From: Patiria pectinifera
Lineage: Eukaryota; Echinodermata; Asteroidea; Valvatida; Asterinidae
Direction: 5' to 3'
NCBI GenBank assembly: GCA_029964075.1
Contig: CM057148.1
Span: forward strand, 26,963,916 to 27,027,915
Length of the DNA stretch: 64,000 bases
The translations under genes and the position numbers were made by a program. The notes under the pieces are model-generated. The model saw only the letters and a list, made by a program, of their open reading frames with translations, was not told the DNA's origin and did not search any database. Of this stretch, positions 3,335 through 30,255 are shown piece after piece (within the stretch, counting starts at the first letter, position 1; each line of letters starts with the position of its first letter).

Positions 3335-3523
3335 ACTTCCGGGCAGAAACGACCTGAAGCTCTCCAAGAGGCAAGAAGACGAGTTCATAATCTGATCGAC
3401 GAAGCCTTCTCATTGGTCGGTTTACCAAAGAATGCTATCTCTCCAGTCATACCCCTAGCAACCAATGCCCCGCCCATAGCGACAGATCAAGAGGAACGGA
3501 CCAATAACACCAAAGATAATCAG
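3335..3523 (+). CDS. KIAA1549: KIAA1549-like copy 1, exon a
   Basis: The acceptor is a pyrimidine-rich tract ending TTTCAG before 3335 and the donor is CAG|GTATAG at 3524. The exon has 63 codons in phase 0 at both ends. It carries the charged helix with LQEARRRVHNLIDEAF followed by a Pro/Ala/Asn-rich stretch. Copy 2 (24167-24355) differs at three residues only. Confidence 0.8.
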
Positions 3524-6500: not shown

Positions 6501-7649
6501 TGCTGAAGACGAATGGGCTCAGCTTCACCAATCACAACAATTGGTGAGGGGATATTGCCAAAAAAAATGCCAGTTTCAGGGATGACACAATAGATCTGTT
6601 ATAAATAATTCTTAAACTTAAACTGGAATCACAGTCTATTTAACTTGTAGTGGTAGGATTTGAATTCAGATTTTTCAAAATTCGGTTTGAAATCCACTAT
6701 TCGGCTTAGATTTTTGAAACCGGATATTCGAAATAACCTTAAAAAAACAATTAAGCCTTCCAGTTTTTTGTGAAACAGGCTAAAGAAAACAACTGGAACA
6801 TCCCCCAGATTACTCCATGGTCTCTGATTGTAACTGCATTCACTTGCTAGTGGTCTTCTTGGTATATGAACAGCCTGCCCATTCATTTATAAAGTGTATG
6901 GTTGAAGATGTGTTGCTGTTTTTGCTACAAGGTAGTGAAGAGGAATGCTGAGAGAAACATTAATACTTCTTTTCTTCTTTCGGTCTGATCAGACCTCAGT
7001 TCCTGGAGGCGTAGAGGATACTCACCATCCACATCAAGCTGCTCATCATCTGACGATGCCTCATCCTGTCAGTATCCCTGAAACCTCCAGGGAGCCATGG
7101 ATTAAAGGATTAACATCCTCTCAGCAAACTGACAATGAGAAGAAACGTGCAACAAGCCAAGGGAAGCTGTCAAATAGCCAAGAAGACCTGATGCAGGGAA
7201 GACCATCAACCAGCATGAGAAGGTCATCAACTAGCTCAAGAAGGCTGTCAACTGATTCAGACATTCCAAAGCTACGGAACACTGCTCCAGATGATCCATA
7301 TTTGGACCCATACCTCAAGAGCAGTTTGAATGATGAACTGATTGGTACCTATACCTTGTCTCCACGCTCAGATGATCCCACTACACCACAGGAAGACCCA
7401 TATGCAATGGCACTTTTAAGATCTGACAGAGAACCTCAGTCTCCGAAACCAGACTCTGGCAGAGGTGACATGTTGTCCACATTGTCCAAGGAGCGTGGTG
7501 TAGGGAAGCCAGTTGCTGATGGGTATGATGAGTTTGACGTTAGTAGAGATGTTGCTGGCAGAGATAAGTCAGGTCAGCTTGTAGCAGCTATCAGAGATGA
7601 GTTAGTCAGACTTGCTAAGAAAAGTGGACAACATGGAAGCGGTGTTTAA
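3335..7649 (+). CDS. KIAA1549: KIAA1549-like protein, C-terminal exons, copy 1 (partial gene)
   Basis: Four coding exons join in phase: 3335-3523, 4198-4250, 6351-6543 and 6993-7649, giving about 362 C-terminal residues that end in a stop at 7647-7649. The first exon encodes an RPEALQEARRRVHNLIDEAF segment and the protein ends with a helix-like IRDELVRLAKK stretch. Both resemble, from memory, the cytoplasmic tail of the KIAA1549/KIAA1549L (UPF0606) membrane-protein family. Neighbouring HIPK exons support this call, because the two families are linked in human. The middle is rich in Ser, Pro and Asp, and probably disordered. The 5' exons, including any membrane span, are outside the window. 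Function is unknown here. The family call is moderately sure and the exon structure is strong, being duplicated with all splice sites kept. Confidence 0.72.
3640..4115 (-). repeat. M4-family MITE, reverse orientation, in intron
   Basis: Matches the reverse complement of the element at 864-1291, including the central GATAGTTGGCCAACCATCG hairpin region near 3921-3940 and the end that reads GTATGTTACCTTTAA. It lies between exons a and b, and the same insertion is at 24470-25005 in copy 2, so it predates the duplication. Confidence 0.6.
4198..4250 (+). CDS. KIAA1549: KIAA1549-like copy 1, exon b
   Basis: A 53 bp exon after TTTACAG and before the consensus donor GTGAGTAA at 4251. It enters in phase 0 and leaves with two bases of a codon, completed by exon c. 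It encodes TLFQRKISDSVTSSAAD. It is too short to be convincing alone, but it is conserved with its splice sites at 25080-25132. Confidence 0.75.
4359..4859. mobile_element. TTAA-flanked MITE (piggyBac-like), copy 1 only
   Basis: Terminal inverted repeats AGCTATAGTCCATCATTTG and the reverse complement of CAAATGATGGACTATA lie just inside two TTAA sites (4359-4362 and 4856-4859). The paralogous site in copy 2 (around 25230) has a single TTAA and no insert, so the empty site is visible. TTAA target duplication is characteristic of piggyBac-type transposases. No ORF, so non-autonomous. Confidence 0.85.
6351..6543 (+). CDS. KIAA1549: KIAA1549-like copy 1, exon c
   Basis: The acceptor is CTATCTTTAG before 6351 and the donor is TTG|GTGAGG at 6544. 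The exon supplies one base to finish the exon b codon, then 64 codons. It encodes a basic and acidic stretch (SSPAEIGRSHHDGKD) followed by ANIVWNPYSAEDEWAQLHQ. Copy 2 (27018-27210) differs at two residues. Confidence 0.8.
6993..7649 (+). CDS. KIAA1549: KIAA1549-like copy 1, terminal coding exon d
   Basis: The acceptor is GGTCTGATCAG before 6993. The exon encodes 218 residues and the stop TAA. The first part is rich in Ser, Thr and Arg (RPSTSMRRSSTSSRRLSTDS), the centre in Asp/Pro (DDPYLDPYLKSSLNDELIG), and the C-terminus is a short helix (LVAAIRDELVRLAKKSGQ). The open frame extends upstream to 6945, but the part before 6993 reads through the polypyrimidine tract and is intron. Confidence 0.82.
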   Translation, partial: TSVPGGVEDTHHPHQAAHHLTMPHPVSIPETSREPWIKGLTSSQQTDNEKKRATSQGKLSNSQEDLMQGRPSTSMRRSSTSSRRLSTDSDIPKLRNTAPDDPYLDPYLKSSLNDELIGTYTLSPRSDDPTTPQEDPYAMALLRSDREPQSPKPDSGRGDMLSTLSKERGVGKPVADGYDEFDVSRDVAGRDKSGQLVAAIRDELVRLAKKSGQHGSGV

Positions 7650-7714
7650 GTCTCGAAATCCGGATTACAAAAATGGAAAGCAAGTACATTTAATTCCTTT
7701 TTGTCATGTTTGTA

Positions 7715-8007
7715 TTAACCCTAACCCTCCAGGGTATATTGGCCAGAAACCCTGCTAAACACAGCAACATGCAACACTTGTCTCAATGACAAGCCTGCCC
7801 AGTGTAGCTAGATTCATCAGGCCAAAAGTCTCAGAGTCCGTGGTCACCGAATGCAGCAGGATACAACTGTGGCATTGTTCAATGGGACTAGCTCTCATTG
7901 TCTCAGAAGCGGCCGTTGATGCACTGGTGTTGATCGCTGAATGCATCAAAGTGCACCAGACCTTTCCACCTGATGCACCGTGTTGCGTCTGACAGGGTTA
8001 GGGTTAA
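7715..8007. mobile_element. TTAA-flanked MITE with CCCTAACCCT ends
   Basis: Inverted ends TTAACCCTAACCCT and AGGGTTAGGGTTAA enclose about 290 bp with no ORF. TTAA at both borders suggests a piggyBac-type element. The inner CCCTAACCCT resembles telomere repeat units but is only two units long and symmetric, so it is better read as a TIR. The paralogous copy is at 28982-29276. Confidence 0.65.
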
Positions 8008-8730
8008 CCCACCACGTCTCTTGCTACCCTTAGCTTTCAACTAAGCTTTCTGATCAACGTTTAATGTTACATGCTATAACACAGGGCTAGTGATCAGGGT
8101 AGGGTTACAGCAGTTCTTTAGCGTGAGGCCAGACAGGGCAACAGCCTCCTCTCCTCAGGGTTGACACCCTTGATGAGATCGCTATTTTCCGCGATACATG
8201 TATTTAGTTATTCAGTGTGTGCTAGTTTTATTCCCAACTACAACTTCTAACGTGTGTGCTCCAGATTGTCGTGAGAACAAATTTAGTTTGTACTTGAGAA
8301 TTTTTATCTGTATATTTTATGCCAGCTGTAGACTTCTCAGAGTTTATTATTGATGTGTTTATCCTTTCATGTGACAATCATTCAAATTATTTAAATATTA
8401 ATATTTGAATCTTTTATCAATTCAATTACTTGAAACATGCTTTTTGTTAAATGCTTAGAACAAAGTGCACCAAAGTTTCCACATGCTGTACATTAATTAT
8501 TCGATCAATTTAATTTTTCATAGAAATTGTCTACAACTGGAAAACTAGTCATGATGATTGATTGATTTCACTTGTTGTCATTTACTTATTCACTTATTAA
8601 TAATTCATTTAACCCTGACTTGATGAATCGACCAATGGCTGCTGTTCTTATGTATAACAATAATATGTTCCGAGGGGCAATGCAAATGCTGTTATCAATT
8701 TTTTGGGGGATATCTTTAGCAGAAGCTAAG

Positions 8731-8983
8731 GCCTGGGCCCAATTTCACGGCGCTGCTAAGCACAAACATTTGCTTAGCACAAAAAAGTCTGGCTTATAAA
8801 AGCAGGTTACCAGCCAAAACTCCATGTGGTTTTCATGCTAAGCAAACAACAGCTGGATACTAATCTCGAGCAATAAACATCACATGGAGTTTTGGCTGGT
8901 AACCTGCTTTTATAAGCCAGACTTGTTTTGTGCTAAGCAATTTTTTTCTGCTTAATAGCAGAGCCGTGAAATTGGCCCCTGGC
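8731..8983. repeat. Stem-loop MITE, family M1
   Basis: A long imperfect palindrome: the left arm has CAATTTCACGG, TTTGCTTAGCACAAA and GGTTACCAGCCAAAACTCCA, and the right arm carries their reverse complements. The two arms can pair over roughly 100 bases. Related copies are at 30001-30253 (paralogous site) and 48171-48411 (HIPK 3' region). If transcribed inside a 3' UTR it would form a long hairpin. Confidence 0.8.
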
Positions 8984-10076
8984 TATGCCCATGTCTTTGA
9001 GATTTCAAATAAACAACCGGAGGTAAAGATGCATGTATGTGATCACTGTGTCAGTGTTAGAGAAATATCTCACTGCCAAATGAACAACCCTGACAAACCT
9101 ACTGCAAACAATTTTCTTTTGTGGAACTGTACATTTGGGGAAAACAAGATTTTAACTTTCAATTTAATTTATGCAAATCAAAAAAATGACAGAACTTGGT
9201 AATTCATAGGTGATTTTCCAGTTGAAATTGATTTGTTGAACTTCTGTTTTAACATTCCTAATATTTGTTGTTATTTTTTATAAACTTTTATAAGTGTGCT
9301 TTTATGTGACTGGTTTATGTGCTTTGTGCTTAGTGCTACTCCTACCATTCACTTGCAACTGAACTGACCAGACATTTGAAACGGAAACAAACTCACGAAC
9401 AGCTGTTGAGGAAAAATCAATTATGCTAATTATTACTGATTATGCGCCGTTGTCTCTGTGAAGCCACCCCCTTTGGGAATGAGTGGGCGTAGTTTCATCG
9501 CTCTGTTTAATGCTATCAGCTAAAATGGTTTCCATGTTTTCCTCAAATCAGCACGGTATCTTCTGATACAACATAACAAAGCAGTGACAAAGTAACAGCA
9601 TTCGGTTTTGTATATTTTTTGTTGTATGACATCAGAGACATTAAGAGACATCAAGCAGGCCACTTATCTTTTCCAGCTCTTCTACTATTGTGCACTAGAT
9701 ACTTATATTGTATAGATTGTGTTTTTGATATTTATTTGCAGTTTTAGAAAGTGTGGGAACAATTTTGAAATATTTATGGATATTTGCGGTACATTTTCCC
9801 CTTATATTGTTTTCTACTTCTATAGATCCATCTTTTTTTATTAAAAATCTCCCAACAATCAAACATGATAATACAGGCAACCAGTTGGTTATTGTTGCAA
9901 TTCTAGTCGGGCTGGGCTTCCATCATATTTTGGAGGATGACCCATTTATGATTTGCTGACATTTTGGGAGTTGTTACCGAAAATTGAACAAACTATTGTT
10001 GTTTAGTTAAGAAGAACATGAAGGAAGAACATGGACAGATCAGTGATGGATAGAATTTTAAACAAACCATGTCCCT

Positions 10077-10443
10077 AAGGCCAAAAAAAAAACCACTCGG
10101 TCTCTGCTCAGGCCAAAGTTCCGGAATTGATGCGGCGACGCGGCTTTTTTTTTTTTTTATAAGCTTGGATTGTACAGACAAGGTGGGGTACTATTTTGCT
10201 TTTTTGGGTGTCCTCATGTACATTGGTGTCCTCCATAATTTGCCTTGGTGCCCTCGATCATTTGCCTTGGTGCAATTTCCCATTCCTTGGTGCTCTTTGG
10301 TAAAAGAAAATTGAGGAGGTGCGGCAATAGAGGGCGCTGTTGGAGCTACCGCAGAACATTTTGGGGAAAAAAGGTTGACGCGCATCATTAAAATCGACGC
10401 GCGCGCTGACCAGAGACCGACTTATTTTTTTTTGTTTTTGCCT
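10077..10443. repeat. MITE with CGGTCTCTG-type inverted ends
   Basis: The left end reads AGGCC, an A-tract, then CGGTCTCTGCTCAG; the right end carries GCTGACCAGAGACCG, a T-tract and GCCT, so the ends are inverted. No transposase ORF. The same insertion is at 31735-32110 in copy 2, and a truncated inverted relative lies at 12719-12890. Confidence 0.65.
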
Positions 10444-11366
10444 AACCTGTGTGCTGTACATTTTGTGTGAGCCTTGAAGTTTTCAGATGTGAATAGTCTT
10501 TTAAGATAATTGTTTTTTGCTGCAGTGCGATGTAAATATTTTGTATAATTTTGAATTGTATTCACTGTGTTGATGCCAAAGAAAATGTTACCGCTGTGTA
10601 GGCTGCAAGTCAATCTTTACCTAAAAAAAAGTGTGTGGGTTTTTTTTTTCATTTTAAATGCCACTGCCCAAAAAATGCCATTAGTTTATAGTTCTTTTAA
10701 TATGTACCTGATTTTTCGGTTTCCTTTAACGTGAGTTGCATTAAAACAGGGTTTGATAGGCATGCAAGGTATTGTGTAGAAGGGTTTCAAAAGAATATCA
10801 CTTTTCGCTACTTAATGTTATCACTGACCATTTATAAAGAATTGTGACAATTAAGCGTTTACCTTTAAAGTGAATATTGGGAAAACCGATTGTACTGTCT
10901 GTGTGAACCTATTCTATGTCAAACGAAGTTGCCAGAGATGATTTTTTTTATGGCTAAACATTAATGCACAAGAATGGCTGATATTAAGCTCACTTGCCCG
11001 TCTTTTTTTTATAGTATAGAAAAGCACTTAAATGTAAGCACTAAGTTGCAGTATAAGTTAAACTGCCTATTATATTAATGCAGTTTCAATGTTTATGATC
11101 CATTACAAATCGGAGTACTTGTAGATGTGAAACGTTCCTTTTTTGCCAGCGTTTCATGTTGCACGCCTACATACCCCGAACAAAATCTCTATGACAGAGT
11201 TTCATCCCCTGAAGATGCTAAAATATAATTAAACCAGTCGACTGTACCTCGGGTATTTTGTCTCTGTCGCAACCAGACTTCAAATACACTGCGTTGAAAG
11301 ACTCGTCTCAAAATGACTTACATGTAGATGCATTGTAATACTAATGTTTATGATTACATATTGTTC

Positions 11367-11372
11367 AATAAA
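11367..11372 (+). terminator. Poly(A) signal AATAAA, KIAA1549-like copy 1
   Basis: Canonical hexamer about 45 bp before the point where homology between the two duplicated copies ends. The equivalent hexamer in copy 2 is at 33034-33039. Confidence 0.55.
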
Positions 11373-11416
11373 ATTCTGTTTGCAACACAAAGTCTTCAGC
11401 TTGATGTTTTATTTTA

Positions 11417-12535
11417 ATTAAGGGAATAAATGTGTGATCCCGAGGTTTTTATCATTCTGTTTAACACCACTTAGAGTCTGGGTGCTGATAATTACCCGAG
11501 CCGGAGGCGAGGGTAATTATCAGCACCCAGACTATAAGTGGTCTTTAACAGAGTGATAAATACCGACGGAGCACATATTTATTCCCATCCATAAATACCT
11601 TTTCGGTAAAAGAAAATCATATAATTCGTTCAAAACATCCGATTTTGTTCAACAAATTCACTTTATGCTTTTTGAAACATCCCTCTTGCAAAATAATGGA
11701 GTGTTCAGCTGGCGAGTAAGATGTAAACAACCTTTTTATGGAGATTGACGCGCGCGTATCATGTTCTGCGCGATGTCGCGCAGAACGCACCTGGCGCGTT
11801 GCGTTTTGAATTAAGAACTATAAAATTCTGACTCCCTGGTAGTGTTGCGCATGCCTACGTGAGGATTGTGAACGTTCAACCAATGAAACGATAAGAGGCA
11901 CTGGATTTTTAGGAGTCCACATTTAATTGTGACACTGGAAAAGTGTTTAAGCCCAGCTAGCCCAACCTCGTCCCCAGTGCTTACTTTATTTCCAACACGG
12001 TTTCCAATAGTAAACCCTGGATAGGAAACTTTCTTCCTGTATCCTGATTGGATACCGCCAGTAGTGCCAGTAATGGATTTTTATCGTGTACTTGGTGCTA
12101 TTCATTCACAACGTGCAGTACGTGTTTTCGCGATCATTCGTCCACACCTTCTCGAAAATACTAATTTCCTTTCCAATTTGCTCCTATTAATATAAAATAT
12201 GATACTGCATGTTGTCTCGATAAGATCGTAGCAGCTTGATTTCGAAAATCGTGTTTTCGTAACTCACGCTGCGCTGTCTACCTACCCATTGACTTTACCC
12301 CAGACACCACATACAAAAACAAAAACAAACGTGTATGTACGCACGCCCAGGCACCAGAGACTCCTCATTTGCATATGCAAAAAAAAAATCTTGCACATGA
12401 TCCAATACCAGGCAGTGGTGAGAGAGCAGGTAGTACTGGGCAGCTAGCCATGTCTTTATCATCCGTTTAAGACCGGCCACGTGACGGGCTCTCGACCAAT
12501 AGGAATGCGTAAACTGTCTTAGGTATTTATGAATA
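11417..12535. mobile_element. Foldback element with near-perfect hairpin, itself interrupted
   Basis: It starts where the duplicated block ends. The first part has a strong hairpin (GTCTGGGTGCTGATAATTAC and its complement, about 11474-11533) enclosed by GGGAATAAATGTG-type arms. Sequence matching the reverse complement of 27285-27893 continues to about 11960 and resumes at about 12448. Between the two lies about 490 bp bordered by CAGCTAGCC on both sides, consistent with a 9 bp target duplication and a younger insert. No coding capacity. Confidence 0.6.
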
Positions 12536-13057: not shown

Positions 13058-13142
13058 ATGTACATGTATGTGTTAATAATAGCGACGGCTATCTTCGCGA
13101 GCAGCCCGTCTGTTGCTTATGACATATGTCCTCCAGGCACTG
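13058..13142 (+). CDS. Ig-NACHT exon 1: signal peptide
   Basis: ATG at 13058 opens MYMYVLIIATAIFASSPSVA, a short hydrophobic core with a plausible cleavage after the Ala, then YDICPPGT. The donor CTG|GTAAGT at 13143 is consensus and leaves phase 1, which matches the next exon. Another ATG two codons later would also work. Confidence 0.75.
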
Positions 13143-16100
13143 GTAAGTTATATTGCCCATTCCATGAACGGTTGGTCATGCCAATGAGCTTGTTCGATAA
13201 ACCTTTCATTTAACATGCGCATTGTTGAATAGATAAAAGATGATACTGTATTCGTGAACTGGTATTTTGATCATATTATTGGTACCCATTCTCATGGATT
13301 CTAGAGGCATTAATCTGTATGACAGTGCTCGTGACCCTTTCTTTTAGTAATGCAGTTGATATAAAATAAATCATGCCGTAACTCAAACCTAGGATTCTGG
13401 TCTGTCCCAGGAACCAAAATAATAGGAGAGACTCCAACCCGTTACATTTAAATGAATTCAAGTATAACATGAATTATGCATCTGTAGAGTATACCGGTAT
13501 ATAAAGAAAATGGGGATTAAATTAAATTTCATTAAAGTATAGCAGGAATGCCAAACTGCTGTAAAAACAAAGGCTTATTGAAGGATATTCTTGTATCAAG
13601 TGTTTTGAGGAAATACTGTATCACATTTTTTTCTTACGATTTGCTTGTTTTAAATTGGTTCTTAGAAAAATTGAAATTCAAGGTTTTAAATAGAATATAC
13701 TGATGTACCACTCAGTTATTTTTGCTTTTTTTTCAGAAGAGATTATTCATGATGTATTCGGACAGTCTGCAAGTAAAGCACATGTACAGATCGGGCTTTG
13801 GCACAGGGTTCCCTGTACATCGGTCACAGAAGGTGACATCCCGAAGGGAGTTACTTGGTACAAAGGTTCACTGGAGGATCCTTCCAAAAAATCACTTATA
13901 AGTCACACCGATGGTAAAGATCATCCCCCCTCGAGCGACAGATATGCATTTTCATCAGGTTTCAGCCTAGTGATTAAAGGTGTCAGTGAATCAGATAAGG
14001 GGAGATACCTTTGTCAGGCCATACATGCCATAATTACACATGGTACCAACAACATTCGACAGGAAGAAATTGTCCTTGAAGTTATTGGTAAGTTCAACGA
14101 AATGTACACACCAACTTGTCTCATTCGTCAAGCAGATAAAACGATTTGCTCAAAAACATAAACAAACGGCATGTGAAATTTCACGCAATGATAATTAAGA
14201 TACCTTTTTCTTTTTTTCTCCCAAACTAAATCACAACATGAAATTGACTAGGCGCATTATAATATCTTTTTCGATTAGCCAGCCTTGTGTTGGCGGTACC
14301 CCATTTTGTCAATGTCTTTCTTCACGGGGCGCTATAGTCAGAAGTCATAAACCCAATTGTGCCGTGTAGCTAGGGATCAATCCCAAAGTCATGATGCTTG
14401 CCTTGCAAATAAGCGATGCTGCCCATCTGGAAAATAGCAAAGGTGCGATGGTTCATCAGTTGGTAGAGCACCGGAACGGCAATCGTGAGGTCGCAGGGTG
14501 AAACCCCTCTCCAGTCAATTTCTTTTCTTTCTTCTTTTCAACTTTGAAACACATTAAAATACTATACCATAATTCTTTACTGCATTTTGAGATATCTGTG
14601 CTCTTTGACGGACTGCTACTCTTAATACACGCAATTATTGTGTCGCCTTTACATGTATTCAGGGGACTCTTTTCCGGCCACAACCAAGTACACATCGTCC
14701 ACTGCTACATTGCAGCGAGAAGGCAGACAGACGCTACCGTGTCAGTGCGCGTCACTGACACCAAACGCAATATCCGTTGTGTATTGGTCAATGGGAGAAG
14801 GCATAACTGAAGATACAGAGATCATTGGTGCACGTTTTGCTGATGGTGCTACACTACAGTTCCGACATGGCGTTGATTACAGCATTGACAGCGACGCGTC
14901 ACTTACAGTTAATTCTGTCGGTAATTTACACGATGCAGCGAGGTTCTGGTGTCATGTATATCAGTCAGACGGATCACGGACCGATTGCTACACAGATGTC
15001 CACGTATCAGGTATTTTGTTTTATTAAGATGGTTTCAAATATGAATATCATAATCGGACAACTGTAAATTTTGCGCCGTCCCTAAGCATCGCCAATTAAT
15101 ATGAACATCATGTTTGCAACATGAACAAGAGCGTTTTATAGTCCATATGCATGTACACTTACAATCAAAGTTGAACATTAATTATCTCATCGTTGTTCAC
15201 GTAATCCAGGTGAGACTCCATTGACTGGTCCTCTCAGGGCATCAGAAGCATCATTCTACCTGCTGAAGGGAACGAGGCAGATCATTCCTTGTACATCTTG
15301 GAAACCTGGCAATGCAACATGTTTGGTGCAATGGTTTAAAGTTGATATCTGGAGCCATCATCTCCTCATCAATTACACGGTGTCCACCAGTACTGTTCAT
15401 GCTGATCCATCGTTTGACCTTGCTCTTGACTTCGATCTGATAATCAAGTCCGTTGATGAGGATGACGGTGGGAGCTACAGCTGCTCTGCAAATCCTGAAG
15501 CCAATGAAGGACTTGTCGAAGTCCGTGTAATTGGTAAATGTTTAGTCGTTTCTTTCATGGGGTGGGGTCATTTTGGTTCCGCACGCTCATTTGACTTTTA
15601 GTGTAACATTGTTGATATCTACCACAATTCTGTTTGTACGTTTGACTCTTGCCTCTTCATGTAAGTGTCATTGTATACGAGTTTGGTCACTGTTAGCGAA
15701 CTACTTGCTTTTAAAACACTGGGCTGTCACTTGTTGTTATTGTTGTATTACACAGGAGATATGTTTCCGTTGGATGGAGGAAGCGCAACTAAAGGAGACG
15801 TCAAAACATTTGCATCGGATAGCAAATTTGCACTGCGCTGTCCAGCCATTGAAGGTGTACCTATAGGTAGCAGAGCCACGTTGATTTGGTCATTTGGTGC
15901 TGTTGATGCACAACTGACCACTGTGGTTGGCAAGCTAGATCTACCAGCTGGCTCCAAATGGCTGTCTGACAAAGACGGCCACACCTGCTTCGGCGTAACA
16001 GTTGAAGGGTCTCTCCTTCTAACAAACTGCTCTCAAAAAAATGCTCTCAGATTCTGGTGTCATGTGTTCCCTCATGGAGAAGCCTTACGAAGGTCCTACG

Positions 16101-19100
16101 TGGATGTGATAATGAAAGGTAAGATTCCCTACATATTTTGTGGTCGTAAATAAGAACTTTGTTTAAATGAAGAAAAATGTGTTTATCTGGTCCGTGATGT
16201 GATGAATGTAGCTAGGTTAAAAATGAGGAAGTTATCAGATAATCGCCGTCTGATACATCCAGACGAATAGATAGTCCAGATGTATCGATATGATTGTTTT
16301 CTTCACATCAGCAATTCACAGAAAGTCATACACAAACACTCTCTGGAATTCTGTTCTGGGGATGATTGAATGTAATTGCATTTCTCTTTTACTTTGACAG
16401 ATTCCATCCAGCCTTCTAACGTTGGTCTCATAGCTGCTGTTGTCTCTATTTCTTTACTTGTTCTCGTTGGTATCACTGCGTGTTTGTTGTGTAAGCTAAG
16501 CAAACGGAATCCAACTCACGATCGAGAACAAGTTGTCTACCACCCAATTCCTAAAACAGGTAAGTGACGTTGAAAAAGGGGCTAATTTGTCGGTGGTGTA
16601 ATCATGCAGTATTTTTATACTTGATTGTACTCCATCGATTGTGCAGTACAGAATATTATCATCTTGTATGGTTCATAGTGCAAAAAAATAAACAACACAA
16701 TGTGCAAAGTATTGCTTATTTTACGCTGTTATGTTGGTAATCTATGTTTCTTAACAGAACCTGCACGACAGTTTAGCGTGGCTACGCTCACTACGATGAT
16801 CCGGGAGTTTGTGGCAGAGAAAATGAGCAGACTGCCCATCACGCCTTGGGTGACAGGTGACGACAGCTACGCAGCGATGGATGATGTATACACACCACTG
16901 GAGATGTACATCAATGTATCTATTGCAGGTTGTAAAGCTAGATATAGAATAGAGTCAGAGTCTGAAATCTTTGATGACGGTATCTCTGAATTGTCGAATT
17001 GTCATGTACTCCTTGAAGGTAGATCAGGCTGTGGTAAAACTGCCTTCTTAAGCAAAATGGCATCTGACTGGTCACTGGAAAAGCCGCACGCAGTACTCGG
17101 TCAGAAAAAGATGGTCTTTGTTCTGCCGGCGAAAATTCTCATAAAAGCTAGGAATGTTGGGCAAGCAATTGTTCAATATATGCTTAAAGGTGGCACGAGG
17201 CATTGGGCAAATTCCATCAATGAATACTGTTTGACGCACCCCGACGAAGTGGCCATTCTTGTTGATGGCTGCAATGACACACATGACATAGACAACGTCA
17301 TGGAGATCATGACGGAACATGGTCTTTTGGGATGTCAAATAGTGATAAGTGCAAGACATACACAGATGGTGGAAAAAACAAGCAAACGTCATAAACTGCG
17401 CCACATAACGATTACTGGTTTTACCCAAGAAAGTGCAAAGGTGTACGTTGATAACCACTGTGATGCATTCAGTCGCAATTGTGCCAAAGATCAGACTCAA
17501 ACTAGGGCAAGTCATGACGAAACACAAGAACACAAGGAACAAGATGATGCAGAGTTACAAAGTGGTTGTGACAAATCGGACAGCAGCCGTGAAAATCAAA
17601 ATCAAAGAGTGCATTCACTCATTCACAGCTACTTAGACGCAAACATTCTACACCCAAATGTGGCTTGTCTTCCCGTTATCGTAACGACTCTGTGTCAGTT
17701 ATCCCTTTGGTCTGATGGGGTGGCTTTCCAAGATGATCCAAGTATGGGCGACTTGTTTATCAGGTTGGTGAAATGTTTGTTTGAGGGAAGCAGTGACAGA
17801 GGCGATGACGATACCAGAACACCTGAGGCTTTGAACAGACATGTGGAGTTTGATGACGTAACAGGCCTATCAAAGGTACAGCTTGTAATATTGAAAAAGT
17901 TAGGAGAGGTAATTCTGCCGAATATGTTTGAAAATGAATGTCAAGCTACATTTTCCAAGGCGCATTTCGTGAATTTGTGTGATAACGGTCAGGCAATTTT
18001 AGACGTGGCAATTAAAATTGGTCTTGTCCGTTGTGAAGGAGATACAGATGTTGACTTTGTCCTTGAAATACTTCGGGACTTCTGCGCTGGTCTTTCCTTG
18101 GCTCATACTGCTGAACAAGATGAAAACTGGATGGCTGAACTTCAGCACATTGATTTGATGAGTGAAGCTGAAACGTTTTCAATCGTGTATGCGTTTGCGT
18201 GTAGGAAGAGTCAAACGGTTTCCAGCGGACTTGTGCAAAAGATGGCACGGTGCAACAATAGAGAAACGACCAATGTCATTGATATGCAAAAACTGATCCA
18301 GTTTTGTCTATTGCTGAATTTTGAAGGAAAGTGCAAAGGTTCGTTGAATACCAAGTTCGCCGGCCTCTTTGAGGGAGGTAAAGTTTGTCTCGGAGGCGTT
18401 TCTGGTCACACGATCAGAATGCTGTCATATTTGTTCGAACATGCAAAAAAAACGGTAGAAGGTGTTGCTTTGTGTATTGAATCTGTTGAGTTGTTGCGAC
18501 TTGAGAAAAATGACTGGGGAGAGTTTCGGGAATACTTTGAGTACTTTTTTCCATTGAATCTGGAAGAGGACATCCTGGAAACTGAAGAGATGCAGAGGTG
18601 CTCAGAAAATGAGACACTGGCAAAGTTGCGTGAAAGAGTAGAGTCCAGAAACAAAGACATGCCTTGGTTTCCCCCAGACCAGTCAGACATCTGGGTCCTT
18701 CGTACCGTGCAGTCGTTGGGTCTTTATGAGCTTCTGGAGGGCCAGGCAGGTGTATCCAATGCTGGTGAAAGTCACCAAACAAGTGCATCAAGCGAGTTAG
18801 TTCGATGTCTGTCGTATCTACCGAACCTTGAAAACCTCGTTCTTGTGGGGACAATTTTCAGTTCAAATGATGTCTGCAACTTTGTCCGTGAACCTGAAAA
18901 CACTCCGAAGTTGAAAAAGCTTGATCTCCGTCTGAATAAGCAGTTTGATGATGATGCGTTCTATGCAGTTGCAAGATCACTCATCAGACGCTGGGGAAAA
19001 GGCTACAGTAACATTGCAGACCTCCGATTGTCTTTGTATAAAGTAACCCGTAAAGGGTTTCTTGACGTAGAGAAGAACACCGGCAGTGATGGAGGTATCG

Positions 19101-19303
19101 GCTGGTCTTATATACAAACTACATATCTACTGCATGGTAACATTCCGAAGAAATTATGTGAACTCCTCAAAAATATCCTGAATCAGAAAATACCATTCTC
19201 GCTTAGAATTGATAGAGGACCATATACCGAGATACTATATGGTGAAGGAACAGAAACGCTGAAGCCACCCTTTTGTGGCCTAAATCACAAAGGCAAATCA
19301 TGA
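13058..19303 (+). CDS. Membrane-anchored Ig4-TM-NACHT-LRR receptor (seven exons)
   Basis: Join of 13058-13142, 13737-14087, 14663-15010, 15210-15533, 15756-16118, 16401-16559 and 16758-19303: 4176 bases, 1391 residues. Order: signal peptide (about 1-20), Ig-like domains at about 29-145, 146-261, 262-369 and 370-490, membrane helix about 498-521, ITIM-like VVYHPI at 535-540, NACHT with Walker A GRSGCGKT at 631-638 and Walker B AILVDGCND at 709-717, an NLR-type winged-helix/HD2 motif near 975-990 and a weak LRR tail near 1224-1300. Every intron is phase 1. NACHT-LRR proteins are normally cytosolic sensors with a Death-fold or similar N-terminus; here that position is taken by an Ig ectodomain. 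Inferred role: a surface immune or recognition receptor with an NTPase oligomerisation module inside. It lies between the two KIAA1549-like copies on the same strand. Confidence 0.82.
13737..14087 (+). CDS. Ig-NACHT exon 2: Ig domain 1
   Basis: After a TTTTTTTTCAG acceptor, one exon encodes a V-like Ig domain: first Cys in VPCTS, core Trp in VTWYKG, and DKGRYLC around the second Cys. The donor is ATTG|GTAAGT. The length is 351 bp, phase 1 at both ends. Domain 3 shares its PCTS and W[YF]K signature. Confidence 0.87.
14440..14520 (+). repeat. tRNA-derived SINE head in intron 2
   Basis: An A-box-like TCAGTTGGTAGAGCACC and a degenerate B-box near GGGTGAAACCC are spaced as in a tRNA gene, followed by a T-rich tail. 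It is too diverged for a functional tRNA. Confidence 0.5.
14663..15010 (+). CDS. Ig-NACHT exon 3: Ig domain 2
   Basis: Phase 1-1 exon, 348 bp. Cys in LPCQCAS, core Trp in VVYWSMG and second Cys in AARFWCHVYQSDG. The RFWCHV signature recurs in domain 4 but not in domains 1 or 3. Extra Cys residues at the first-Cys site (CQC) and near the end (TDCYTD) could form a second disulphide. Confidence 0.87.
15210..15533 (+). CDS. Ig-NACHT exon 4: Ig domain 3
   Basis: Phase 1-1 exon, 324 bp. IPCTS, VQWFKV and DDGGSYSCSAN mark the Cys-Trp-DxGxYxC core. An extra Cys lies just before the core Trp (NATCLVQW), and NAT and NYT are possible N-glycosylation sites. Confidence 0.87.
15756..16118 (+). CDS. Ig-NACHT exon 5: Ig domain 4
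   Basis: Phase 1-1 exon, 363 bp. ALRCPAI, TLIWSFG and ALRFWCHVFPHGE give the Cys-Trp-Cys core. Closest to domain 2 within the protein. The donor is AAAG|GTAAGA. Confidence 0.87.
16401..16559 (+). CDS. Ig-NACHT exon 6: transmembrane and juxtamembrane
   Basis: Phase 1-1 exon, 159 bp. It encodes a hydrophobic helix (VGLIAAVVSISLLVLVGITA), then CLLCKLSKR, a basic stop-transfer pattern that puts the C-terminus inside. The tail DREQVVYHPIPKT carries VVYHPI, which fits the ITIM pattern (I/V/L/S)xYxx(I/V/L). Two membrane-proximal Cys residues may be palmitoylated (inference). Confidence 0.85.
16758..19303 (+). CDS. Ig-NACHT exon 7: NACHT NTPase, helical region and LRR tail
   Basis: One 2546 bp exon after TTCTTAACAG, with the stop at 19301-19303. 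It has a pre-NACHT strand (DDVYTPLEMYINV), Walker A GRSGCGKT, Walker B AILVDGCND, a sensor-like CQIVISARH and a Lys-, Gln- and Asp-rich insert (about 790-830). VDFVLEILRDFCAGLSLA corresponds to the NLR helical motif that usually reads F-H-x-x-x-Q-E-F; here the His and Gln-Glu are replaced. The C-terminus has only about two LRR-like segments (LPNLENLVL, LKKLDLRLN), much shorter than most NLRs. The open frame upstream of 16758 is intron. Confidence 0.87.
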
Positions 19304-19934: not shown

Positions 19935-20796
19935 CCATCAGTTCTATAATCCTAGAGTACTTCACTCTGTTGGGACCTTCCAAGTGGTTTGTAATAACCT
20001 TGTTCTGCTCACCGAGTTGCACAAGAATTTCCAGAAAAGTTGCTATCCCGTTGCAACTTTCTACCTGTTGCCTGCCTCCACGCTGCCCAATTGAGTAGTA
20101 GTTTGACTGATACCTTGGCAATCTGATTAATGTAGTGTCTGCTTTCTCAAATTACTTCCGATGTGCAGACACGACTCTTTCCAGACACATTACACTCCGT
20201 TGTGGTATGCATTTTTCCTCATGCTGTTTAAGTCCTGTAAATCTGGATATTAAGGGTTTAAGGGAATTTTCACGATGACATGACTCAACAACGCACATGC
20301 ATGCCGATGTAAATTAAGTTCAATTTTGGGGACCAAAACTATCGTGAATCGCTACTCTTGCTTAAATTTGCTGTATTTATTAATACCGTACTGTATCCTG
20401 AAAGTACTGAATGTAATTAACGACTATTTAAATACAACTGTATAATAGGTTTCGCCATGTACTGTATACAAACCTGAAAACGTTGGGTTTAAGTCGATAC
20501 AGTGGATGGATATACTTTGTTTGGTAATTTTTCAGAAACTTAAGGATATACATTCTTTGCCGTTTTACAACTACTGTAGTATTCAATGATATTTACGGGC
20601 TGTTGGCGGTGCAAACATTTATAAATAACTAAGTCTTAAAGTAAAGTTAACAATCAAGTTTATTAAAGCCGATCTTAGAGCTCACAAAATTATACTTAGA
20701 TAATTCAGAATGGCTCAAATGTCGTACAATAAGCTGAAGTGGTAACGTATATGAACTATACAAACGTATAAACAAAATACACTTTCGCCCTTGACG

Positions 20797-21326
20797 TTAA
20801 AGGGACAATACAACATTTGCAGACATCAAAAAATAAAACTACCAAATCATTTTGAAAAACCTTGCTGGACTGTAAGTGAATGACAGTGTAAAGCATCCTG
20901 TAAAATCATGGCACCTGGTATACTGTCATTTTCAAGAAAAGTGGTATTTTGGTATCAATTTCCAACGCTGATCGGCCGATCAGCGTTGGAAAAAACTGGC
21001 TTTTTTTTCAAATACTGGCCCCAATTGACCATCGCACGTGTTTGCAATCGATTACAAACCTATGAACGGGTACGAGCTAGCTAGACTGGTTCCCTGACCT
21101 TACAATTCCCCAATGTATGTAAACTGCTCTGTTTCTTCTTATATGGAGTCAGGGAACCAAACTGCAGGAAAATGATCGTTTTTCTTGGTTTGTATAGCAT
21201 TTTCGAACCCAAAACCTCAAAAAAGTCAGTGTAACTATATTTGCTGTATATTTCCAAACCCCCCCCCCCCCATTCCATTCATTTTTGAAAATTACAGCAA
21301 AAGCAAATGATGTATATTCCTTTTAA
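20797..21326 (+). repeat. M4-family MITE, fuller copy in block 2
   Basis: Paralogue of 864-1291 with the 3' part kept (about 21226-21323, including a poly-C tract). It has a central hairpin on CCAACGCTGATCGG and ends with ATGTATATTCCTTTTAA, which pairs with the 5' end TTAAAGGGACAATACA. Confidence 0.65.
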
Positions 21327-22484
21327 GAATTGACTTATTGTCGACACATGTATCTTGAAAAAACATGGGACAATTAAGCCTTGTTAGACTAAAGAACACG
21401 GTGTACATGCTACATCACATATGAAAAGGCTCGCCTGGAATAGAAATTGACTGGGATATATGCAACCAGTCAATTCATTTGTGATATTCAGTCAGTCAGT
21501 CGGGCTGGCCTCATCTGGGACAAGCGAAAGATAGGGCGAAAAATATGTAACAGTTTTCAATGCCATTTCACTGTGTACATGTAAGAAACACCTAACACCT
21601 GTCAGGGTACTTAAGATCGATTATTAAGTAATAATGTTATGTTAAAATATCAATTTTGCCATTTTCCAATCAAATGAAGGTCCGATGGTTTGCAATGAAA
21701 CATGACATGTATACAAAAACAAATCTGGTTAGTATGAATAGCAATCATAAATGTGACTGAAGTAAATTTGATTGTGACAATAAATTTTGGCAAACAGCTC
21801 TAAAGCACCATGATCTGAGTAACACCTGGGAAATAGGCGGACCATGATTACAATAGTTATAGTGTTTAACTTTCGTACACTTTTAAAGCAACTTATTTAC
21901 TGCGCTTTATATTTCATAGCTGACCTTTTGTACAAATGTTTAAAGAATGCTTTTAACCCAAACAATGTCATTGTATTTATATTTCATTTTCCATCCGAGG
22001 CTGAATTTTGAACCTAATTATACGATGCAAACAACAATGAGCGGTCTGTTTGAACAGTACAAAATGGCGATACTGTTGCCTGGAAACTTATTTTTACATT
22101 AGCCAAAGTCCAACTTCAAACGTGTTCGTAAACATGTAAGGTATTCTGGATTACACACACTCTCTTGTGATTGCTTTGGAAATATGAGAAGAATAAAACC
22201 TAAATTAATTGAATATAACGCATTTGGAGAGAGATTCTTATTTTTTTGCTTTTGTTGAGAGAGATTCTGAATTTTTCGCTTTTGTTTTCGCGTGAAGTGT
22301 GAACCGCCAGTTAGCCTCCCTCTGCCCCATTCCCCTGTGCCCCCCCCCCCTCCCGATATACTGACGAACAACACCACCTTGTGTTTGATAGCTAGTGCTC
22401 AGTGTCGTTCGCATCCGAGGATGCAATGATGTTTCTTATCCCCCCCCCCCACCCTTAATGTTATCAAGGTGATAAATAAGTGTT

Positions 22485-23019
22485 CTTAAGGTGATGCTGA
22501 GAATCAAAGCAGGGTGGATGAAATTTGGTCAACACAAAGACATGCTAACAGACAACAAATTACCAATATCACTAAGGAAGAGACTATTCAATCAGTGTGT
22601 GCTATCCACTATGAATTATGGATCAGAAACTTGGTCATTAACTAAAGAACTTGAACAGAAACTCACAACAGCACAGATAGCTATGGAAAGACAGATGCTT
22701 CACTTATCCCTACGAGATAGAGTAAAACATGAAGTAATTCGGCAGAAAACTGGGGTGAAAGATGTCATAGAGAAAGTCAGCGAAGCAAAATGGAGATGGG
22801 CAGGGCATGTAGCAAGAATTCAGGATAATAGATGGACATGCAGATTATTGGCAACCACGAATGGGAAAGTGAAGGAGAGGAAGACCAAAGAAAAGATGGA
22901 GAGATGATATAACTACATATATGGGAACAGCGACTTGGACTAGGACAGCCAGAAACAGAAGTGATTGGAAACGTCATGAGGATGGATGGACGTAGCCTGA
23001 TAGATAGATAGATAGATAG
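22485..23019 (+). mobile_element. 5'-truncated RTE-type non-LTR retrotransposon
   Basis: Insertion of 535 bp absent from copy 1, bordered by the 11 bp direct repeat AAATAAGTGTT (22474-22484 and 23020-23030). It encodes the C-terminal end of a reverse transcriptase (CVLSTMNYGSETWSLTKELE and AKWRWAGHVARIQDNRW are typical of RTE-like RT C-termini), then shifts frame near 22873 where the family usually reads RPKKRWRDDI. The 3' end is a GATA microsatellite tail, usual for this group. Confidence 0.88.
22494..22907 (+). pseudogene. RTE reverse transcriptase C-terminal fragment
   Basis: 138 residues from the thumb/C-terminal region; no catalytic core (no FxDD box) is left. The frame ends early after a one-base shift, and the related frame continues to about 22975. 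Non-functional remnant. Confidence 0.8.
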
Positions 23020-23767
23020 AAATAAGTGTTTGTTCTGGTCATCTGATGAGAAGAATTTGCAATACGACAGTTAGGAGTCTTGCCTTTGGAAACACATGCC
23101 CATCTTCTGCATACCTGTGGCATGTAGGGAGTGGGGATAAAATGGGTCTTGTGTTAAAGTAAAATTTGTGTGAAAAAATGTGTACGGGTAGAGTTAAGAC
23201 TAAACTGGATACATTTTGCAAAGTAGGACGAATACTCCAAATAACTGCAGACTGGATTTAACTACATCATGTGCATAAAGAAATTGATTTGTTTGGAAGT
23301 ATCCCCCAATCCCCCAAGTTAAAATAATTAATGAAAGTTCAATGTTTACGGAAACTGTCATTTAACTCCAGAAATTCAAATCAATGTATATATACGGTAT
23401 GAGAAACTGTAACTCCAATCTCCAATCTTGAGGCGCTACTCAAGATGTCATATCTGGTATTCCAGATAACAGATTTCTAAAGAAGCATGGTCGTTCGGTA
23501 TCCAAAATAAATGTAAAGATTTGTGTATTACAGAGCAATATATTGCAAATTGTGGCATTCACTTGGTGTTTTTTTTTCACAGAAAATGATGAAGGATTGG
23601 CGAAAAGAGTTTATGTCCTGATCCTTACATGTGTTAGCAATAACTTAAAAGTAAAAAACAAGCTCAGGAATGAATTTCATTTTTGGGGGGTCATGTCTTT
23701 GTTTGCTTGGAATAGCCCCTATGCAAACATTGAACAACGGTTGCATATAGGAGAAGATGGTCGATAT

Positions 23768-24057
23768 TGTAACGGCGGTGCCGGGCCGCCGGCAAAGGGC
23801 GCCAGCACGGACCCACGGTGCAACCGTAGCGTTGGGACTCCTGCTGCTGGGCCAGGGAGACCCGTTGCCAGACTGCGCCGACTCAGTAGTGTGACTTTTG
23901 TATAGCGTTCCTTTTTGTCGTGAATTGTATAAAGAGAGAGCCTCGTGTAAAGAAAGTGGCAAGAATAAATGGCCGTAGAGCCCCGAAGCCCTGAAGAATA
24001 GTGTCTGTGGTTTCCTTCGTCTGGCGTGTGAGAACCCCAGATTCGTTCTAGGTTACA
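23768..24057 (+). mobile_element. Solo LTR (290 bp) with 4 bp target duplication
   Basis: It starts TGTAAC and ends GTTACA, flanked by ATAT on both sides (23764-23767 and 24058-24061). Copy 1 shows the empty site with one ATAT (near 3228). It contains TATAAAG at 23928-23934 and AATAAA at 23964-23969, the spacing expected of a compact promoter and poly(A) signal. It is GC-richer than its surroundings. A 4 bp duplication fits a Ty3/Gypsy-type element. The internal region is lost, probably by LTR-LTR recombination. Confidence 0.87.
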
Positions 24058-24166
24058 ATATCATATTTTCCGATGCGATGTGCAAAAGCTGAGCTTCTTA
24101 TATCTCGTGCTTGATCTTCTTTTGTTTGATGAGATCTTCTGACATGGTATCTTTTCTATCTTTCAG

Positions 24167-24355
24167 ACTTCCGGGCAGAAACGACCTGAAGCTCTCCAAG
24201 AGGCAAGAAGACGAGTTCATAATCTGATCGACGAAGCCTTCTCATTGGTCGGTTTACCAAAGAATGCTATCTCTCCAGTCATACCCCTAACAACCAATGC
24301 CCCGCCCATAGCGACAGATCAAGAGGAACGGACCAATAGCAACAAAGATAATCAG
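24167..24355 (+). CDS. KIAA1549: KIAA1549-like copy 2, exon a
   Basis: Acceptor TATCTTTCAG, donor CAG|GTATAG, 63 codons. Relative to copy 1: Ala to Thr in IPLxTNAPP, and Asn-Thr to Ser-Asn near the end. Confidence 0.78.
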
Positions 24356-27300
24356 GTATAGTAAGATAAGGCCATGTCAGAATCTGCTATTTTGGGGCAA
24401 TGTCTTAAAATTTTTGCCATTAGTGCACTGCAGCAAATGGTCGTAGCCGCAAACATATATCCCAATGTGAACTTAAAGGTATACAACATTTCCTTTTGCT
24501 GTAATTTTCAGAAATGGATGGATTTGGGGTTAGTATTTTAAAGCAAATATTGTTGCACTGACCTATTTAAAGTCTTGTGCATATAGATGCTGGGAACAAA
24601 AAAATGTTCTTCTTGTCTAGTTCCCTGACCCTACTTCAGATAAAACAGAGCATTTTATAGACGTCGGGGAATTGTCAGGTCAAGGAACCAGACTAACTCG
24701 CTTGGGCCCATTCATAGATGTGTAACTGATTGCAAAAAAAAAAATGAGGATTAACTAAAGTTGGTAAATTGGGGGCAGTATTTGAAAAAAGTCATTTTTT
24801 TTCCAATGATGGTTGGACGACCATCGTTGGAAATTGATACAAAAGTCCACTTTTCTTGGAAATGACAGCACACCAGGTGCCATGATTTCACAGGATGCTT
24901 GAGACTATTATTCACTTACAGTCCAGTAAGGTATTTCATAATAATTTGGTAGTTTTGTTTTTTGATGTTTGCAAATGTTGTATATTACCTTTAACCTAAC
25001 AAGCATTTGTTTCCATTAGTGGTTGAAAAAACGCAATATTATTAAAAGGTGAATGATTTTTTTTGTTTATTTTTTACAGACTTTATTTCAGAGGAAAATA
25101 TCGGAAACTGTGACCAGTTCAGCTGCTGATATGTGAGTAGAGTGCCTCGCCTTTTCTCTGATGAATTCACCATTGATTATATGAACAGATGGTGTCAGTT
25201 CATGGTGTCAGTAATAATCTGGTTTGTGTTTAATTATCATTGAAAAACTGCTTTCAATGTTTTGTCTATGTGCTCTGCTGATACTTATACAGAAATTACA
25301 AATGAAGTGCATATTTTAAGTGCTGCTTATGCAGTAATTTTAAAACAATTAGCAAATTGTCAAGATTTACTAATCCAATGGAATCAAATATATTTGCTCA
25401 AAGGGTTACAAAGAGAGAGTTAGGGGGGACCACTGGGGAGACATTTGAACGCATTGCCAATGATGCTGGACGCTCACACAAACGTGACAAGACGCTGTAG
25501 CTTCAATTTGTGCACTATACTTCACGCTCTAGGGGGAGTGTGTGGCCTAGTGGTTAGGGTTCGTGACTCATGATTAGAGGGTCCGGGGTTCGAATCCAGC
25601 CGCTGGTCATATGTTGTGTCCTTGGGCAAGGCACTTCACCCCCACTTGCCCCTCTCCACCCAGGAGTATAAATGGGTACCGGCATTAGCTGGGGAGGACT
25701 AGCATCCCATCCAGGGGGAGTAGAAATATTCTCAGTCGTTTCATGCTACTGAAACCGGAGATAAACGCCGGCCTGATGGGCCACATTGGCTCGTGACAGA
25801 CTTTGCTTTATACTTCACGCTATACTCGTGAATCCAGAATGTGTATGCGGTGTGTATCCTCCGCATAGTCTGGTTCCCTGTCCCCATTGTCCTTCGGACT
25901 CCAAATATGGGGACAGGCACCAGTAGCTAGCAGTGAATCCTGCATACATTAGGAGACTTTCCTCGTAATGTATGCAAATTATATGCATGACATGCATAAG
26001 TCTGAATCCAGCCTCCTGATGTGCATTCAAAATAAGGATAATGTCTGCGCACAACCAGTATGCCACAAATGTCCAGTTAAGGAGGTGATTCGATGTTGGC
26101 TGAATATGAAAGTGTTTCTGGTAACTATCAATAAAGAAAGGGGCATTACTGTTCAGTATTTAAAACTTATGCTGTTGAAATGCTTGAAATTGTATTCATG
26201 AAGACACTAGCGATTTGGCGTACTTTTTGTGGTTACAGAAGAGTAGGTTTTTTGATAATCCTGTGTTCAAGTTTCGTCCATGCACTAAGCTGAATAAATA
26301 GTGATTGAAAATAGACAATCATGATGCGCACAGAGGTGATCCAATCAATGGCTTTAAATTGGAGTTACATGTAGCTACTGGTCTCCATATTTGTTAGTCT
26401 ATGTAATAGACCATGACGGAGCTATATAAACATTTGAGCAGATTCACTGATTACTTATGCAAGACAACCGCATCTTGACCTCTAGATTGTCACCAATCAG
26501 CGGGCGCTTTCTATATCGGGTCTTAAGTCATTCACCCATTGTCGCGTCATAGACATGGATGAAAAAAACAGACACAGCAACAAAGGCTGTGGTCTCGTGC
26601 TCTGTATTATATGTTACGCGATGTGCACCCGGCTGTTGTTGTATTACAAAACACTGCATTCGAATTGACCAATCAAACTCTTGGTCCTGATTTGGGAATA
26701 AAATGACGTTACTGTTTAGTAAAGTCGACTCCAATTGACTGAGGCGAGATCACATACATTTTTGTAAATCTGCATGCTTTGACATACCAGACGTTAGACA
26801 GGAGTCTGGGCTCCGTGGATAACGGGTGATACTCAGACTACATTTTTGTAGGGGGCCAGGAAACAGTCTATCCTCCGCAGTGCTCTCGAAAGTGGTCGAG
26901 AAGCGCCCTCTTTTGTCCATGAACGGAGTCCCTAAGGACAAAGTGAATACTTTTTGTAAATACATGTAAAATATAAGTACAGTAAAAAAGTTTAAAATCC
27001 TTGTTTTCTGTTTTTAGCAAAGGCAGAGAGTTTGGTTCGTCACCAGCAGAGATTGGCAGGAGTCATCATGACGGGAAGGATGTAGACGAGAAAACGACGC
27101 GGTTTGTGGTAGTCCCTGTATCCCATCAAGCAGATGCAGCAGCTAACATCGTCTGGAACCCATACAGTGCTGAAGACGAATGGGCTCAGCTTCACCAATC
27201 ACAACAATTGGTGAGGGGATATTCGAATACACCGAAACATTTTACACTAAAAAAAAATGCCAGTTTCAGGGATGACACAATACATTTTTATTCATAAATA

Positions 27301-28917: not shown

Positions 28918-28981
28918 GTCTCGAAATCCGGATTATAAAAACGGAAAGCAAGTACATGTAATTCCTTTTTGTCAAGTTGTA

Positions 28982-29276
28982 TTAACCCTAACCCTCCAGG
29001 GTATATTGGCCAGAAACCCTGCTTAACACAGCAACATGCAACACTTGTCTCAATGACAAGCCTGCCCAGTGTAGCTAGATTCATCAGGCCCAAAGTCTCA
29101 AGAGTCTGTGGTCACCGAATGCAGCAGGATACAACTGTGGCATTGTTCAATGGGACTAGCTCTCATTGTCTCAGAAGCGGCCGTTGATGCACTGGTGTTG
29201 ATCGCTGAATGCATCAAAGTGCACCAGACTTTTCCACCTGGATGCACTGTGTTGCGTCTGGCAGGGTTAGGGTTAA
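28982..29276. mobile_element. TTAA-flanked MITE, copy 2 paralogue
   Basis: Same element and site as 7715-8007, with TTAACCCTAACCCT and AGGGTTAGGGTTAA ends. Confidence 0.65.
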
Positions 29277-30253: not shown

Positions 30254-30255
30254 CT

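Follow-up and report, generated by a model that had tools for sequence, protein, structure and literature searches.

Proteins that combine a NACHT domain with leucine-rich repeats (NACHT-LRR proteins, NLRs) are usually regarded as cytosolic sensors. Can an NLR also be built as a receptor of the cell surface? The question is raised by a gene in a stretch of 64,000 nucleotides from the sea star Patiria pectinifera (assembly GCA_029964075.1, contig CM057148.1, forward-strand positions 26,963,916 to 27,027,915; hereafter the window, position 1 being its first letter). A previous sequence-only reading had proposed that this gene encodes immunoglobulin (Ig) domains, a membrane span and a NACHT-LRR tail in a single protein. 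Our analysis favors a single-pass type I pattern-recognition receptor of the cell surface, probably of coelomocytes, which belongs to an echinoderm kind of Ig-transmembrane-NLR (Ig-TM-NLR) proteins. We put the probability of this reading at roughly 0.7.

Seven exons encode an Ig-TM-NLR protein in one reading frame

The gene spans positions 13058-19303 of the forward strand. As claimed previously, seven exons join in frame, yielding 1391 codons followed by TGA; all six introns are of the GT-AG type and in phase 1. The encoded order is signal peptide, four Ig domains, a single TM helix with a basic stop-transfer sequence, NACHT domain and NLR tail. The exons are:

13058..13142, + strand: exon 1, in-frame join; contains the start codon, the signal peptide and, at the likely N-terminus of the mature protein, an ICP motif
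13737..14087, + strand: exon 2, phase 1-1; Ig domain 1 (V-set)
14663..15010, + strand: exon 3, phase 1-1; Ig domain 2 (V-set)
15210..15533, + strand: exon 4, phase 1-1; Ig domain 3
15756..16118, + strand: exon 5, phase 1-1; Ig domain 4
16401..16559, + strand: exon 6, phase 1-1; TM helix (by hydropathy) and juxtamembrane stretch
16758..19303, + strand: exon 7; entire cytosolic NLR part and stop codon

Every Ig domain and the TM segment occupies a symmetric 1-1 exon of its own, which is the classic form for exon shuffling. The signal peptide, also part of the previous claim, is present as judged by eye and position, and Cys 24 of the ICP motif is conserved in 11 of the 14 homologues that have a residue at that position. 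Exon 7 runs for 847 codons without a stop, for which the chance is about 1e-24 at its base composition. When the joined protein was submitted to Pfam, a check that the sequence-only reading had recommended, V-set was found with an E-value of 5.6e-19 over three stretches, along with further Ig families, and NACHT with an E-value of 1.8e-11.

The join of Ig and NLR parts recurs in three sea-star species

Window residues 480-1391 were searched against 5.8 billion proteins. According to Pfam, all 20 matches carry a NACHT domain and 16 of them a V-set domain: these are 16 Ig-bearing sea-star proteins, one protein with NACHT only (P0014) and three Death-NACHT proteins with an NLRC4 helical domain. 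A profile search limited to the 7995 candidates with the most shared words contributed P0021 from Acanthaster, in which the helix was also picked, and the NACHT protein P0022. Hence, 17 predicted sea-star proteins exhibit the order Ig, membrane helix, NACHT (ten from Patiria miniata, three from Acanthaster planci and four from Asterias rubens). LOC119726494 (Patiria), LOC110975472 (Acanthaster) and LOC117305409 (Asterias), for instance, share the order Ig, TM, NACHT and tail with the window protein. The homologues are 29-42% identical to the window protein over the BLASTP-aligned part of the query, reaching 66.7% in Ig2; they are longer (1437-2038 residues as compared to 1391) and are named only as uncharacterized. 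No description of sea-star Ig-NACHT proteins was found in the open-licence literature, as judged by titles and the beginnings of abstracts. Within each species the homologues have an identical longest-contig figure (38,186,250 for P. miniata, 3,395,331 for A. planci and 10,582,139 for A. rubens), which suggests that they reside on one shared chromosome or scaffold per species.

In tblastn with the 17 Ig-bearing homologues, exons 3, 4, 5 and 7 were matched by 17/17 and exon 2 by 16/17 proteins, and all 136 matches fell within the gene, with none elsewhere in the window. Exons 1 and 6 gave no match at E 0.001 in this search. Accordingly, the Ig and NLR parts are tied to the homologues by sequence, and the signal-peptide and membrane exons by position, hydropathy and reading frame. 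An artificial fusion was considered and dismissed, as 17 sea-star models show the same join and homologues match each of exons 2-5 and 7. An error shared by the prediction pipelines, possible in principle, is unlikely because the same join is seen in three species and the reading frame is intact here. The case for the join is carried mainly by the domain order of the homologues and by this reading frame.

The locus could alternatively deliver two products, an Ig-TM receptor and a cytosolic NLR, through retention of intron 6 or an alternative start, the joined form being minor or an artefact. Readthrough from exon 6 into intron 6 would meet a stop almost immediately (position 16565), the frame of exon 7 is open from 16679 and contains internal Met codons, and the sea-star homologues are database predictions. 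Nevertheless, we consider two products very improbable: exons 6 and 7 join in phase, this join recurs in the 17 models from three species, and the sea-cucumber protein AjNLRC4, which has the same order, was derived from a transcriptome and located at the coelomocyte membrane with an antibody (PMC8699970).

The closest relatives found are all from sea stars. The previously recommended search for Ig and NACHT in one protein was successful for three sea stars; no spread to other classes or phyla was established by sequence. No sea-cucumber protein appeared in the searches with residues 480-1391, with the profile or with the narrow NACHT region; the latter search was insensitive, as it considered 71 candidates, produced no match and missed the known sea-star proteins too, and hence is no test of absence.

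The ectodomain consists of four Ig domains

In the window protein, Pfam placed V-set at residues 44-144 and Ig_2 at residues 281-356. Exons were also scored singly against the V-set cut-off of 26 bits: Ig1 (exon 2; 33.9 bits) and Ig2 (exon 3; 27.8 bits) are above and Ig3 (exon 4; 24.2 bits) is under this cut-off, while Ig4 (exon 5), taken singly, had no Pfam match at E 1. The Cys-Trp-Cys core residues of Ig1 are conserved in 15/16, 15/16 and 14/15, respectively, of the homologues with a residue there. Those of Ig3 are found in 16/16 Ig-bearing homologues, and those of Ig4 are invariant (16/16). In tblastn, Ig1 and Ig3 cross-match, as do Ig2 and Ig4 (three homologues listed). We count Ig4 as an Ig domain because of its invariant Cys-Trp-Cys core and its cross-matching to Ig2. 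The four Cys-Trp-Cys Ig domains of the sequence-only reading are thereby confirmed, through Pfam for Ig1 and Ig2 and through the core residues and cross-matching, and these domains place the protein in the immunoglobulin superfamily. The pairwise cross-matches further suggest that a two-Ig unit was duplicated. Ig2 ranks among the best-kept parts of the protein, with 57.5-64.6% identity to Patiria; when Acanthaster is included the range is 57.5-66.7%, as compared to 40.7% for Asterias.

What might such an ectodomain recognize? Compared with the PDB by sequence, it gave weak matches, 21 rows in all, mostly antibody light chains and including the adhesion Ig proteins CEACAM1 and NCAM1. The latter would fit a different role for the same protein, in adhesion or allorecognition: the Ig ectodomain would recognize cells, self or allogeneic, and the NLR tail would signal cell contact. 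However, the preponderance of light chains in this weak search says little about the ligand, and both characterized receptors found with this design are reported to bind bacteria (PMC8699970, PMC13133943). A role in cell contact hence appears unlikely to us, and recognition of microbes is preferred.

The cytosolic tail is predicted to adopt an NLR fold

Exon 7 encodes the following parts:

17006..17458, + strand: NACHT domain, residues 627-777 (Pfam PF05729, E 1.8e-11, 44.6 bits, cut-off 26.7)
17018..17041, + strand: Walker A motif GRSGCGKT, from residue 631
17252..17278, + strand: Walker B motif AILVDGCND, from residue 709
17459..18379, + strand: post-NACHT helical part, resembling helical domain 1, winged-helix domain and helical domain 2 (HD1/WHD/HD2), from model and NLR alignments; boundaries approximate
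18380..19300, + strand: LRR-like solenoid in which strands and helices alternate, interrupted by a disordered insertion, from the model; last part at low confidence

Both Walker motifs were located as read previously. The Walker A pattern is present in 16/16 Ig-bearing homologues from the search with residues 480-1391. The Walker B motif reads DGCND in the window protein versus DGYDE in the Death-NACHT relative P0018, and NTPase activity may therefore be altered.

Modeled with AlphaFold2, exon 7 matches NLRC4, NOD2 and NLRP3 over almost its full length, LRR included, at 14-16% identity in the structural alignments. The predicted NLR fold covers the helical region, in line with the NLR-type helices claimed before; polar stretches of low confidence, as measured by the predicted local distance difference test (pLDDT), lie at about residues 791-819 and 890-911. 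In the solenoid, strands are modeled at exon-7 residues 541, 575, 692, 720, 754, 787 and 815; pLDDT drops below 50 at 591-655, 661-673, 792-802 and 808-847, and the NOD2 and NLRP3 alignments extend to about exon-7 residue 800. With the family profile, which includes the Ig parts, NLRC4 was retrieved from the PDB at 9e-17, and the LRR parts of solved structures, namely NOD2 and an LRR protein, were matched. As a single sequence, the cytosolic part found nothing in the PDB at E 1. Residues 1241-1340 of the LRR region are 27-52% identical to the window protein across 20 aligned homologues, the Death-NACHT proteins included. The claimed LRR tail thus stands in the predicted fold and in the profile matches, but not in Pfam, where the LRR signal of the window protein is insignificant (LRR_4, E 0.37). 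Taken together, the tail has the composition of an NLR, i.e. a NACHT NTPase domain with Walker A followed by predicted helical domains and predicted C-terminal LRRs. This fold and the 17 sea-star proteins sharing the domain order support the proposal of one gene for a membrane-spanning Ig-NACHT-LRR protein.

At its N-terminus the protein departs from the vertebrate NLR subfamilies, which are defined by an acidic, BIR, CARD or PYD effector domain: by Pfam, the window protein contains no Death, CARD, PYD, TIR or BIR domain and has Ig domains and a TM helix instead. An NCBIfam scan returned nothing relevant.

A single membrane helix separates Ig domains and NACHT

The hydropathy scan detected one membrane-type helix in the window protein (residues 500-518, hydropathy 2.67), which is followed by LLCKLSKR; this is the helix with basic stop-transfer noted previously. 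It is located between Ig and NACHT, the latter being C-terminal to it. A hydrophobic helix ahead of Walker A is likewise found in 16/16 Ig-bearing matches of the search with residues 480-1391, although the helix of P0001 is weak in the simple scan (1.82). P0005 and P0012 have an extra stretch above 1.8 far along the tail (2.01 and 1.87). The sequence of exon 6 is poorly kept (14.9-37.7% identity in Ig-bearing homologues), its sole tblastn match being to P0001 (36%, E 0.014).

The juxtamembrane stretch contains a short motif:

16538..16549, + strand: YHPI, a Y-x-x-hydrophobic motif

Motifs of this form can act as sorting signals. One is present in the juxtamembrane stretch of 13/18 family members as compared to 5.2 expected by shuffling, a weak excess since the members are related. 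As a lead only, YHPI is a possible endocytic signal or a signal resembling an immunoreceptor tyrosine-based inhibitory motif (ITIM).

Two sea-cucumber receptors have been drawn differently, AjNLRC4 with a second TM helix (776-795) and AjNLR-new with inverted topology, and for these proteins topology predictions and surface-binding data are published (PMC8699970, PMC13133943). By coordinates alone, the second helix of AjNLRC4 falls approximately where a conserved CQLSxW segment would lie. This segment is found in 18/21 sequences (not in P0007, P0009 and P0011), 177-189 residues past Walker A in the Asterias proteins, P0014 and the Death-NACHT proteins, and 225-249 residues past it in the window, Patiria and Acanthaster proteins, which carry an insertion. 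Its hydropathy is 0.8-1.7 in the 18 sequences, and its position is within the NLR-like model. Because the segment is common to the Death-NACHT proteins, in which the same scan detects no TM helix, a membrane helix at this site is unlikely and a single-pass topology appears to be the simpler reading. Given in addition the hydrophobic helix between Ig and NACHT in the window protein and its Ig-bearing matches, we regard a two-pass or inverted arrangement of the window protein as highly improbable.

Relationship to Death-NACHT proteins

In a midpoint-rooted tree of the region from NACHT to the end (22 rows), the Ig-TM-NLRs are set apart from three Death-NACHT proteins with 100/100 support, and the NACHT-only protein P0014 falls among the Ig-TM-NLRs of Asterias. 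In the ectodomain tree, also midpoint-rooted, only Asterias is set apart, on a long branch. Among named sea-star proteins without Ig domains, P0018-P0020 from Acanthaster and Patiria, with the order Death-NACHT-NLRC4_HD, were the nearest relatives retrieved. Death-NACHT proteins of this kind may be the origin of the cytosolic module. In this scenario, phase 1-1 Ig and TM exons would have been set ahead of a single-exon NACHT-LRR module akin to cytosolic Death-NACHT NLRs.

Surroundings of the gene in the window

The receptor gene is situated between the two copies of a direct duplication of approximately 11-13 kb (54-11419 and 19978-33086; pieces about 90-96% identical). A second copy or pseudogene of the gene itself was rejected: in tblastn with 21 proteins (window protein and P0001-P0020), 143/143 matches lie within the gene. 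Further features are:

6939-7649 and 28207-28917: open frame of 236 residues, near-identical in both duplicate copies; first copy without Pfam match at E 0.01
14450-14520: intron 2 of the receptor gene; A-box and B-box letters resembling a tRNA by eye, perhaps a tRNA-derived short interspersed nuclear element
35728-40067: 224-base unit repeated about 19 times, with at least two sequence subtypes and no long open frame through the array; looks like satellite DNA
51756-53021, - strand: 421-residue open frame without Pfam match at E 0.01; by eye, Ser, Pro and His are abundant
54441-57041, - strand: retroelement fragments; matches to reverse transcriptase and RNase H lie under the Pfam cut-offs

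ARAGORN and Rfam reported nothing, the tRNA-like stretch in intron 2 included. A frame beside the retroelement resembles a tyrosine recombinase, which would suggest a DIRS-type element.

Proposed function

Judging from AjNLRC4, the Ig domains would bind microbial surfaces. Ligand would cluster the receptor and thereby gather the NACHT-LRR tails beneath the membrane, where the NACHT module could change its nucleotide state and oligomerize. The tail may then recruit the actin machinery for phagocytosis and possibly also a caspase, as is reported of AjNLRC4. The cell-surface receptor of the sequence-only reading gains support from analogy to AjNLRC4 on coelomocyte membranes (PMC8699970). The NTPase-driven clustering of that reading is a candidate mechanism, next to the oligomerization reported for the recombinant Ig ectodomain of AjNLRC4.

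Several points weigh against a surface receptor of this kind. The window receptor is known here from its gene sequence, the joined product being predicted. Its membrane-helix exon 6 is without significant homologue match and shares position and hydropathy only. The protein forms a long branch in both trees and its placement is unsure. It has no recognized Death, CARD, PYD or TIR domain from which a signalling output could be read. Moreover, relatedness to AjNLRC4 is by domain order and coordinates only, and AjNLRC4 is described with two TM helices and without LRR and AjNLR-new with the reverse topology.

More tentatively, sea stars might possess an undescribed, locally expanded set of membrane-anchored complete NLRs, in which diversified Ig domains sense outside and LRRs inside and an extracellular ligand nucleates NLR assembly at the plasma membrane. 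Such a receptor would resemble an inflammasome that spans two compartments and is triggered at the surface. With a conserved set of several asteroid genes, the AjNLRC4 design would no longer be confined to sea cucumbers, and an Ig-NACHT design would be able to retain an LRR-bearing tail. Such a set would also allow one to ask whether binding outside the cell by itself triggers NLR assembly, and the asteroid proteins are relevant to the topology that has been put forward for the sea-cucumber receptors.

Comparison with known systems

Vertebrate NLRC4, NOD2 and NLRP3, whose NACHT-helical-LRR fold the window tail is predicted to share, are cytosolic, carry CARD or PYD at the N-terminus and have neither Ig nor TM. 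Closer counterparts are found in sea cucumbers. AjNLRC4 of Apostichopus japonicus (MN607598, 2021) is a coelomocyte membrane receptor with Ig, TM and NACHT (PMC8699970). Its layout (Ig-like 31-132, Ig 251-353, TM 483-503, NACHT 600-757), with an Ig ectodomain of about 480 residues, is nearly parallel in coordinates to the window protein (TM 500-518, NACHT 627-777). The AjNLRC4 ectodomain binds bacteria, lipopolysaccharide, peptidoglycan and mannan, and the recombinant Ig ectodomain itself oligomerizes; upon infection, a dimer-sized band and partial internalization are seen (PMC8699970). The NACHT part binds actin and drives phagocytosis, which is inhibited by knockdown (PMC8699970), and AjNLRC4 complexes with caspase-1 via its Ig domains, with cleavage of MLKL (PMC11932488). 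AjNLR-new from the same species (PIK48001.1, 2026; 1197 residues) also combines Ig, TM and NACHT, is induced by Vibrio infection and acts as a bacteria-binding membrane receptor of phagocytosis (PMC13133943). Its NACHT is reported to be outside and its Ig inside, the reverse of what we infer for the window protein, a comparison by description only. In Chiridota heheva, NLRs that carry an Ig V-set domain are reported, within a count of six NLRs with other domains, and share NACHT and Ig V-set with the window protein; the same source states that Ig V-set NLRs were not identified among sea-urchin NLRs (PMC8913654).

The sequence-only reading, which was aware of no characterized receptor of this design, is contradicted on this point by AjNLRC4 and AjNLR-new; it had the anatomy mostly right and overstated the novelty. 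By its predicted architecture, the window gene joins the known echinoderm Ig-TM-NLR kind. AjNLRC4 is said to have two Ig domains, two TM helices and no LRR (PMC8699970), whereas the window protein has four Ig domains, one TM helix and a predicted LRR-bearing NLR tail. This tail and the multi-gene set in asteroids are what is new with respect to AjNLRC4.

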